From positions 2,173,235 to 2,237,234 of the forward strand of contig NZ_WOTN01000001.1 in assembly GCF_010993745.1 (NCBI RefSeq): a stretch of 64,000 nt of DNA. Reading direction: 5' to 3'. The translations under genes and the position numbers were made by a program. The notes below the pieces were generated by a model. The model did not search any database, had not been told where the DNA came from, and saw only the letters and a program-made list of their open reading frames with translations. Of this stretch, positions 45,868 to 48,171 are shown one piece after another. Origin of the DNA: Fodinicola acaciae (GTDB lineage: Bacteria > Actinomycetota > Actinomycetes > Mycobacteriales > HKI-0501). Every line of letters begins with the position of its first letter. The stretch's first letter is position 1.

Positions 45868-46698
45868 TCAGTTCACGCGTTGCATTGCTTTGTCACGGCG
45901 TGCGGCGACACTCGACCCGGACTCACGGCGCGCCATCCGCCGCAGCATTCCCGGCGCCAGCAGGAGTCCCAGAGCACTCCAGACCGCCAACACGCCAATG
46001 GTCTCGAGATGGCGCCACGACTGTCCGATCTCGACGGCCGCCGCGCCGGCCGGCAACAGTGCCGACCGCATGCCCAAACCCAGCCAGTAGAGCGGAAACA
46101 CCTGTGCGATTCCCTGCAGCCAGCCGGGAAGTGCGGTGATCGGATAGAAGATGCCGGAGACGGCGGTCAGTCCGAAGATCGGCAGGAGCAACAGGTTGAG
46201 ATTGCGCGCGTTCGCGGTGACCGCACCGAGCACCGCACCGATCGGAATCGTCGCCACCATCCCCAAAGCCAGCACCCATGGCAGTGTCTCGGCTCGTACG
46301 CTGACACCGCCGACGATGAACGCGCCGGGAATCAACACGACCAGCAGATCGACGATCAGCGAACCACCGACGAAAACGACCTTGCCGATCAGATAGCCGG
46401 ACATGCCGTGCGGAATCGCCTTGCTCCGCAGCAAAGTGCCGTCCTCGCGTTCCATCGCGAGCAAAGCCGCGGTGGTCAGCAAGCCGTTGGTCGCCAGGTT
46501 CATCGCCAGCATGCCGGGCAGCCCGAGCGCGCCCAGCGACCACGTGGTGGCCGCGAACGTCTTCTTCTGCAGGAAAAACAGGGCGACGAGCATCAGCGCC
46601 GGCCAGAAGAAATGGCCCCAGAGGTCGGCCGCGCTGGTGAACGACTGCCGCAGCTCGATCAGGCCGCGCACGCAGCCGGCGCGTACGGCGCGTCTCAT
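45868..46698 (-). CDS. ABC-2 type transporter permease, no ATPase partner
   Basis: 276 residues with six hydrophobic spans and the ABC-2 layout: an amphipathic N-terminus, EREDGTLLRSKAIPHG after TM2, and a C-terminal gate region SGIFYPITALPGWLQGIAQVFPLYWL. Such permeases need an ATP-binding subunit, normally encoded just upstream. Here the gene upstream is the DUF4097 protein, overlapping by one base (TGATG), and no ATPase is found within the window. It may borrow an ATPase or have lost its own. Confidence 0.85.
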   Translation of the reverse strand: MRRAVRAGCVRGLIELRQSFTSAADLWGHFFWPALMLVALFFLQKKTFAATTWSLGALGLPGMLAMNLATNGLLTTAALLAMEREDGTLLRSKAIPHGMSGYLIGKVVFVGGSLIVDLLVVLIPGAFIVGGVSVRAETLPWVLALGMVATIPIGAVLGAVTANARNLNLLLLPIFGLTAVSGIFYPITALPGWLQGIAQVFPLYWLGLGMRSALLPAGAAAVEIGQSWRHLETIGVLAVWSALGLLLAPGMLRRMARRESGSSVAARRDKAMQRVN

Positions 46699-47537
46699 CA
46701 CCGCGGCACCGGCGTGTCGGACCGGCGGATGACGATGTCGCCGTTGTGCGTACGCGCTCGCACTTCCACACTCGACTCGGCTTTCTCCGGACTGTCGACG
46801 GCGTCGAGAAACCGTCGTACGGTCCCGGTCACCGTGTTCGCGTCCAGCCACACCGGTGTCTCCGGCCGTACGCCGACGTCCACGCCGCCGACCGCGGTCG
46901 TCAGGTCGACGCGGTCGGCGGACACCTCACCGACGTGGATGTTTCCTTGCGTCGTACGGACATCGACGGCGCCGCCCGCACGGTCGACGTGCACGTCGCC
47001 CTTGCTGGCCGTGACGCGCAAGACGCCGGCCACCTCGCCGATCTTGGTGTCACCACGGTCGTTGCGTACGGTCGCCGGGCCGTCTACCTCGTCGACGACG
47101 ATCTGACCGGCGAGCGTACTCAACTGCAGCTCACCGACCCGATCGATGTCGAAATCGCCGTGGTAGGCCTCAAACCGGCACTCTGCCAGGCGACCTTCGG
47201 TCCGCAGCACGACCGCGGCGACGTTTCCGCGTACGGACGAGCCGGCCGGCAGCTCGACGGTCACGTCGATCGAGCCGACACTGCCGAAAAGCTCGGTGAG
47301 GACGCCCTTCGCGCTCTGCGCATCCGGATTTTTCGGCGTCACCACGGACAACCGGCCCTCGGCGAAGTCGATCTCGGCGCGCTCGGCGAGCCGTACGTTG
47401 GATTTTCGCGACTCGCGCGACGGCGCGACGTGGACGACCGTGTCGGTGCGGTCAGTGGCGGTGAGCTGGATCCGGCTGGCGATCCCGTCCAGCTCCAGGA
47501 ACAGCGATATCGGCGCAGGCGTGTCGAACGTCGGCAT
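46698..47537 (-). CDS. DUF4097 family beta-helix-like protein
   Basis: 279 residues of short repeated beta segments (DVTVELPAGSSV, RLAECRFEAYHGDFDIDRVG, GPATVRNDRGDTKIGEVAG, GDVHVDRAGGAVDVRTTQGNIHVGEV), the DUF4097 pattern expected to form a right-handed beta-helix. No signal peptide. ATG at 47537 has GGAGGC seven bases upstream. In many actinobacteria it lies between an RHH (HicB-like) gene and ABC transporter genes, as here. Function unknown. Confidence 0.85.
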   Translation of the reverse strand: MPTFDTPAPISLFLELDGIASRIQLTATDRTDTVVHVAPSRESRKSNVRLAERAEIDFAEGRLSVVTPKNPDAQSAKGVLTELFGSVGSIDVTVELPAGSSVRGNVAAVVLRTEGRLAECRFEAYHGDFDIDRVGELQLSTLAGQIVVDEVDGPATVRNDRGDTKIGEVAGVLRVTASKGDVHVDRAGGAVDVRTTQGNIHVGEVSADRVDLTTAVGGVDVGVRPETPVWLDANTVTGTVRRFLDAVDSPEKAESSVEVRARTHNGDIVIRRSDTPVPR

Positions 47538-47564
47538 GACAGATGCCTCCAAATGATCAGTGGA

Positions 47565-48068
47565 CTAGCGAAGCCAGCCGGTGTAACGGCGACCGGTGGC
47601 GCCATCCTTGGTCGGACCTGTGGCGCCAAGTGTGGCGCCAACGGCACGTACCAGCCAGGCGTTGACGGAGAGGCCGTCGCGACTCGCGGCCTCCTCGATG
47701 CGGGCCTTGAGCTCGCCCGGCGGTCGGAAGTTGATACGCGCGGTCGGACCGTCGGCCTCGTACGGCGTCTGAGGAGCCGGTTGTGGAGCCGGTTGTGGAG
47801 CCGACTGGGGCGCCGGCTGGTCGGCGCGCTGCCGAGTCACCGCCAGCTCCGGCTCGAAACCGCGAAGTCGCACGTCAACCCTGGTCGGAGCGAGCTCCTC
47901 GGTCAGCTCCTGGGCGGCGGCCGAGAGCGCACCGAGCAGCGCGAGCCGGAGCGCCGACTCCAGCGGCACGGCAAGCTGCCGCGCCAACCGCTGCGCGTCG
48001 TCGCCTCCGGCAGCCGCGCTCGCGACCAACTCGCGTTGTACGGCGTCGATGAACGGCTTGAGCTCCAT
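47565..48068 (-). CDS. HicB-like ribbon-helix-helix regulator
   Basis: 167 residues. A helical N-terminal domain (1-75), a Gln-Pro-Ala linker (about 84-100), then a ribbon-helix-helix domain: ARINFRPPGELKARIEEA and DGLSVNAWLVRAV (about 110-146). Similar proteins are annotated as HicB-family antitoxins, but no HicA toxin gene is adjacent, so a plain regulator role is likelier. Six TGGCGCCA palindromes lie before its start and in its own 3' end, good candidate operators. No Shine-Dalgarno is evident at the ATG (48068), so it may be leaderless. Confidence 0.8.
   Translation of the reverse strand: MELKPFIDAVQRELVASAAAGGDDAQRLARQLAVPLESALRLALLGALSAAAQELTEELAPTRVDVRLRGFEPELAVTRQRADQPAPQSAPQPAPQPAPQTPYEADGPTARINFRPPGELKARIEEAASRDGLSVNAWLVRAVGATLGATGPTKDGATGRRYTGWLR
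47597..47640. promoter_or_regulatory. Three TGGCGCCA palindromes before the DUF4097 gene
   Basis: Perfect 8-base palindromes at 47597-47604, 47621-47628 and 47633-47640, inside the last codons of the RHH gene (encoding GATGPTKDGATG) and 60-105 bases upstream of the DUF4097 start. Spacings are 24 and 12 bases. Probably operators of the RHH protein for a second promoter. Assignment is by pattern only. Confidence 0.6.
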
Positions 48069-48078
48069 GACGCCATTA

Positions 48079-48117
48079 TGGCGCCATCACTGGCGCCAAT
48101 GCAAGCCAGTGGCGCCA
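48079..48117. promoter_or_regulatory. Three TGGCGCCA palindromes before the RHH gene
   Basis: Perfect palindromes at 48079-48086, 48091-48098 and 48110-48117, starting 11 bases upstream of the RHH start codon. Centre spacings are 12 and 19 bases. The first pair shares the 12-base spacing of the internal cluster at 47621-47640. Their position over the probable promoter suggests autorepression. Confidence 0.65.
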
Positions 48118-48171
48118 CACACGAAAAGCCGCCCACGTCGTGTACGACGCAGGCGGCGTTTTCGACTCTCT

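Follow-up and report, generated by a model that had tools for sequence, protein, structure and literature searches.

The ribbon-helix-helix (RHH) regulator gene examined here very probably encodes an autorepressor, predicted to bind main operators on a leaderless promoter and an auxiliary operator array inside its own coding sequence, and thereby to control an operon for the RHH protein, a DUF4097 protein, an ABC permease, and a cytochrome P450. The gene (47565–48068, minus strand; 167 amino acid residues) lies in the window, the stretch of 64,000 nucleotides of Fodinicola acaciae that was analyzed as a whole. The evidence is comparative and was drawn mainly from 247 distinct homologous loci of the RHH family.

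The palindrome TGGCGCCA starts at positions 48079, 48091, and 48110, located 5′ of the RHH start codon, and at positions 47597, 47621, and 47633, located within the final 73 bases of the RHH coding sequence. These are the six copies, three per cluster, on which the initial annotation had been based, and the 12-base spacing that it had pointed out is present in both clusters, with start-to-start distances of 24 and 12 bases in the 3′ cluster and 12 and 19 bases in the start cluster. A seventh site that it had not listed, TGGCGTCA on the gene's strand with one mismatch, overlaps the start codon. The window contained nine TGGCGCCA copies, and shuffled windows had a mean of 2.3 and a maximum of 7. 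A genome-wide count, which had been proposed as a check on the palindrome, revealed 329 copies in 8,860,993 bases, corresponding to one per 27 kb. The expected number in the stretch containing the six copies was 0.019, giving a Poisson probability of 7e-14 for six or more copies and of about 1e-9 once all such stretches were allowed for. The reversed control sequence occurred 880 times in the genome; TGGCGCCA was rarer than this control and is therefore not a common repeat.

On the gene's strand (minus), the region preceding the start codon reads TGGCGCCA CTGGC TTGCAT TGGCGCCA GTGA TGGCGCCA TAA TGGCGTCATGG. Operator 1 (48110–48117) lies 5′ of a −35-like hexamer TTGCAT (48099–48104, minus strand), whose TTG is kept at −36 to −34 in 246 loci, and operator 2 (48091–48098) lies within the promoter spacer. 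Operator 3 (48079–48086) overlaps a −10-like hexamer CATAAT (48075–48080, minus strand), which was assigned from the sequence, the family column profile, and a published spacing rule (PMC3898074). The start array has four members once TGGCGTCA (operator 4, 48068–48075) is counted, and this last site ends in the A of the ATG. The main promoter is thus placed at the start cluster, and transcription is predicted to start at the A of the ATG (48068), yielding a leaderless transcript. The distance between the −10 element and the ATG in the RHH family fits that of leaderless transcripts of Mycobacterium tuberculosis (PMC3898074). A strong hairpin followed by T residues was found between ribH and the RHH promoter (48122–48164, minus strand; −31.5 kcal/mol, z −6.3), and it is likely the terminator of the rib genes. 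Its position suggests that the RHH gene probably opens its own transcription unit.

The same layout was observed across the family. TGRYRYCA palindromes tile the RHH promoters of the 247 loci at approximately −29/−30, −18, and −7 with an 11-base phasing, often with more sites upstream, and strict TGRYRYCA occurred 720 times between −75 and 0, compared to 18 times for the reversed control. Neighboring operators were 10–12, 20–23, or 30–33 bases apart, corresponding to about one, two, and three helical turns, respectively. In the family column profile, the operators interleave with a TTG −35 element (at −36) and a CATRAT-like −10 element (at −12), the −10 hexamers fitting C-A-N3-T rather than the full TANNNT. 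Shine-Dalgarno-like motifs preceded the RHH start in only 3 of the 247 loci, compared to 129 of 143 for the DUF4097 start. The sites, their phasing, and this putative promoter layout thus recur by comparison, and the operators lie on the regulator's own promoter, as is typical of autorepressing RHH proteins. An additional array at approximately −160 to −240 was present in about one third of the loci, including many from Streptomyces. At one Streptomyces locus (L047:5790-5850) and similar ones, up to six operators with an exact 10-base spacing were found about 160–210 bases before the RHH start. Of the 394 genomes sampled from the class, 138 encoded the regulator; distant homologues from other classes mostly had no operators, indicating that the layout is not universal in the wider family.

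The RHH protein was predicted to consist of an N-terminal helical hairpin with a β-hairpin, a disordered linker, a C-terminal RHH domain, and a disordered tail ending in YTGWLR. The Pfam HicB profile (PF05534) matched residues 95–142 with an E-value of 5e-5, covering the RHH domain only. Sequence matches in the PDB included AtaR-type proteins, Mnt, VapB26, KacA, and Arc, with weak E-values (best 0.003). In the structure model, whose confidence (mean pLDDT 70) was insufficient for docking, helices at residues 118–130 and 135–147 follow a β-strand, which is the order that defines the RHH superfamily, and the top Foldseek matches of the model were Arc, VapB, CopG, and AmrZ, none of which was significant alone. 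The fold search of the model gave no convincing match for the N-terminal domain. A conserved [T/S]GW-type C-terminus (47590–47565 in the window) follows a disordered stretch, and a G-W/Y/F motif was present in most of the 247 homologues; this motif is possibly a docking peptide. An apparent RHH-DUF4097 fusion in a genome of the same genus (L016), considered as a sign of physical contact, was rejected as a frameshift, the usual RYTGWLR tail and its stop codon being present in another frame. The Pro-Ala-Gln linker is encoded in part by a 12-base repeat, TGTGGAGCCGGT (47770–47817), which resembles degenerate operators and may have given rise to intragenic sites or be a remnant of them.

The predicted base-reading strand of the protein is R111-I-N113-F-R115. 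Among the homologues, both arginine residues of this R-x-N-x-R strand were invariant (247/247), and the middle residue was Asn, Thr, or Ser. Loci with Asn carried TGGYRCCA operators, and those with Thr or Ser mostly carried TGACGTCA. G at operator positions 3/6 (G/C in the palindrome) amounted to 0.81, 0.22, and 0.31 for Asn, Thr, and Ser, respectively, with no significant difference in operator spelling between Ser and Thr. On a tree built without the strand columns, all seven independent contrasts had the same direction (7/7, p 0.016), and phylogenetic regression (PGLS) of positions 3/6 on the middle residue gave p values of 7e-24 with fitted lambda and 2e-9 under the Brownian model. The same regression revealed no significant effect of the middle residue on the control operator positions 4/5. 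The rule also held out of sample, in loci mostly of other classes that had not been used in finding it (0.74 for Asn loci vs 0.15 for Thr loci, p 0.008), and the far-upstream and intragenic sites obeyed it as well. Two loci with Ala at the middle strand position (L299 and L302) had TGATATCA operators 5′ of the RHH gene; as a lead only, Ala may specify TGATATCA as a further letter of the code. AmrZ reads 5′-GGC with Lys18, Val20, and Arg22 (PMC3325190), the equivalents of which are R111, N113, and R115. The covariation of operator spelling with the strand, together with the parallel in AmrZ, argues strongly for the RHH protein itself as the reader of the sites, and the covariation and the invariant flanking arginines indirectly indicate that alternate strand residues contact bases, as in other members of the superfamily. 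The palindromes are accordingly predicted, on strong comparative evidence, to be docking sites of the protein whose gene they flank.

Tandem pairs of the form TGRYRYCA-N2-4-TGRYRYCA occurred only nine times in the genome, and the reversed control had none. Eight of the nine were located at the three RHH paralogues of the genome, which have operators matching their strands: the Asn-type paralogues at the window locus and at 2.737 Mb, and the Thr-type paralogue at 3.220 Mb. Most tandem pairs in 15 other genomes were found at RHH loci as well. With arrays on its promoter across the 247 loci, spelling that tracks the strand residue, and tandem arrays nearly confined to RHH loci, the autoregulation by the RHH protein suggested by the initial annotation is supported. 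The ninth pair lies directly before an alpha/beta hydrolase gene with no adjoining RHH gene (L192:3410-3475, near 285,441), where CTTGCC, TAGTGCCA, TGATGTCA, TGACACCA, and ATG follow one another in the family layout; this gene is likely a trans target of the Thr-type paralogue. In another genome (G261; L271:1133-2164, 2045-2160), a solitary DUF4097 gene is preceded by a promoter and operators of the RHH type, as though its RHH partner had disappeared, which is the arrangement that control in trans would predict. An unrelated antitoxin-like RHH gene with the strand MTLRL (G082; L274:1900-2045) had a pair of TGGTACCA 11 bases apart just before its start.

Downstream of the RHH gene, the DUF4097 (Toastrack) gene (46698–47537, minus strand; PF13349, E 2e-8) starts 27 bases 3′ of the RHH stop codon and has its own Shine-Dalgarno sequence GGAGG (47546–47550, minus strand). 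It is followed by an ABC-2 permease gene (45868–46701, minus strand), which lacks the usual preceding ABC ATPase gene, and by a cytochrome P450 gene (44686–45852, minus strand), an occasional member of the operon. DUF4097 was encoded at 238 of the 247 homologous loci, and the common fuller operon in relatives comprises RHH, DUF4097, ABC ATPase, and permease genes, sometimes with P450. The window operon thus consists of RHH, DUF4097, permease, and P450 genes without the ATPase gene, and the paralogue at 2.737 Mb (L190) has RHH, Toastrack, ATPase, and permease genes.

The three copies in the 3′ cluster (47633–47640, 47621–47628, and 47597–47604) were assigned as putative auxiliary intragenic operators based on a recoding test and an excess of such sites in homologues. 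When the last 35 codons were recoded synonymously with local codon usage, three sites arose in 0 of 200,000 trials, and shuffling the gene's own codons produced three sites in 6 of 50,000. In each copy, a T-ending rare codon (GTT, 2.6%; CTT, 2.7%; GAT, 14%) precedes GGC GCC A. The proposal that protein and operator are jointly constrained in the final codons was thus borne out by synonymous recoding, and this codon-level selection indicates that the cluster is maintained by codon choice. In the homologues, 72 intragenic sites were observed against 11.6 expected, and nine genes had intragenic tandem pairs against 0.01 expected; most intragenic neighbors had a spacing of 12 bases, which amounts to whole codons. 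Only a minority of homologues carried a 3′ or intragenic array. The excess of sites and tandem pairs indicates that arrays within genes are a genuine and recurring feature, but not an obligatory one. The best orthologue of the window copy had about 56% identity, and none was close enough for a test of conservation of the 3′ cluster.

The initial annotation had suggested a switch with two promoters; on this reading, the 3′ cluster would control a second, internal promoter for DUF4097, and the RHH protein would act on the regulator gene and on the effector genes independently. The distance from the end of the three sites to the DUF4097 start is 60 bases, one homologous locus (L205) has an array between the two genes, and the lone DUF4097 gene of G261 described above has an RHH-type promoter, all of which would suit such an arrangement. 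However, visual inspection of the 3′ cluster, guided by the promoter spacing of the family, revealed no −35 or −10 element, most homologues have no 3′ array, and at two loci (L003 and L163) the second array falls within the DUF4097 gene itself, 3′ of its start. Given also the short distance between the genes and the GGAGG of DUF4097, this part of the annotation was not upheld; we regard a second promoter as improbable and prefer an auxiliary operator, since inspection of the cluster revealed no promoter. It is similarly doubtful that a 12-base coding repeat, arising from a GAT motif or linker slippage, produced the 3′ cluster incidentally and that the cluster has no regulatory role. The 12- and 24-base spacings do preserve the reading frame and the linker contains another 12-base repeat, but the rare T-ending codon in each copy and the failure of all 200,000 recodings to reach three sites argue against this origin, as do the relatives' intragenic sites, which outnumber expectation and conform to the residue rule.

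Two further explanations concern the identity of the system, and both appear very unlikely. If the sites were those of a different DNA-binding protein, with the RHH gene as just its target, the comparative nature of the support for RHH binding could accommodate this, but the spelling would not be expected to covary with the RHH strand residue, as it does both when phylogeny is corrected for and in the additional loci, nor would tandem arrays be nearly confined to RHH loci. The gene could instead be a HicB-type antitoxin of a toxin-antitoxin module that autoregulates via the palindromes; it has a Pfam HicB match, RHH antitoxins do autoregulate through palindromes, and M. tuberculosis toxin-antitoxin pairs are often leaderless. 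The match is limited to the RHH domain, however, and no toxin gene is adjacent, the conserved partner across the 247 loci being DUF4097 followed by ABC transporter genes.

For the preferred autorepressor, we propose that RHH dimers bind next to one another on sites spaced by roughly one helical turn, with each TGRY half-site read by R111, N113, and R115. The docked dimers would cover the promoter spacer, the −10 element, and the start codon, and would exclude RNA polymerase; because the sites cover the −10 element and the start codon, we infer repression rather than activation. The middle strand residue would set the base at positions 3/6, Asn specifying G and Thr or Ser mostly A, and this rule would keep paralogous RHH systems of one genome apart. 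The 3′ array probably aids repression, whether through a loop to the promoter, a higher local concentration, or a block to elongation ahead of DUF4097. As a guess, the inducing signal may be envelope stress acting via the Toastrack protein. A more extended, family-wide scheme, in which operator identity is dictated by one strand residue (Asn, Thr, or Ser, and perhaps Ala specifying TGATATCA) so that paralogous RHH-Toastrack operons in one genome are insulated from one another, auxiliary arrays in the linker and tail codons tune repression, and the TGW peptide docks on the Toastrack protein, with Toastrack serving as an anti-repressor and sensing envelope stress, is speculative and we consider it rather unlikely as a whole.

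The results give an uncharacterized regulator that is common in actinobacteria a defined candidate operator, promoter, and specificity rule, all of which are directly testable. The rule, for which nature provides replicates, links one residue of an RHH protein to one base pair in a simple way, and it could account for the absence of cross-talk between paralogous copies. The arrays within genes represent a clear case of regulatory sites preserved in coding sequence via codon choice. The operon context was known before: an RHH factor, a Toastrack protein, and an ABC ATPase and permease have been reported together in Actinobacteria (PMC11237479), and the window copy has the RHH, Toastrack, and permease genes of that context, differing in the absence of the ATPase and the presence of P450. 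The main text of that report deals with the context only; the present analysis contributes the operators, the promoter, and the specificity rule. Searches of the open-access literature for the motif and for HicB/RHH with DUF4097 or Toastrack returned no description of these operators, and the operators, promoter architecture, and specificity rule are apparently new within that literature.

Among known regulators, MetJ, Arc, CopG, and AmrZ share with the protein studied here the RHH fold, a strand that enters the major groove to read short palindromic half-sites, the use of several dimers on neighboring sites, and autoregulation, although RHH binding is predicted in the present case. MetJ reads AGACGTCT with Thr at the middle position contacting A, which agrees with the association of Thr with TGACGTCA. 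In contrast to these proteins, to which its sequence similarity is weak, the regulator has its RHH domain at the C-terminus, behind a helical domain and a linker, and its operators cover a leaderless promoter and recur within coding sequence. The operator lacO2 and the internal gal operator are examples of secondary operators that lie within the transcribed region, several hundred bases from its start, and can assist repression; the array described here differs from them in consisting of 8-base RHH sites in the tail codons of the regulator's own gene, for which looping is a proposal.
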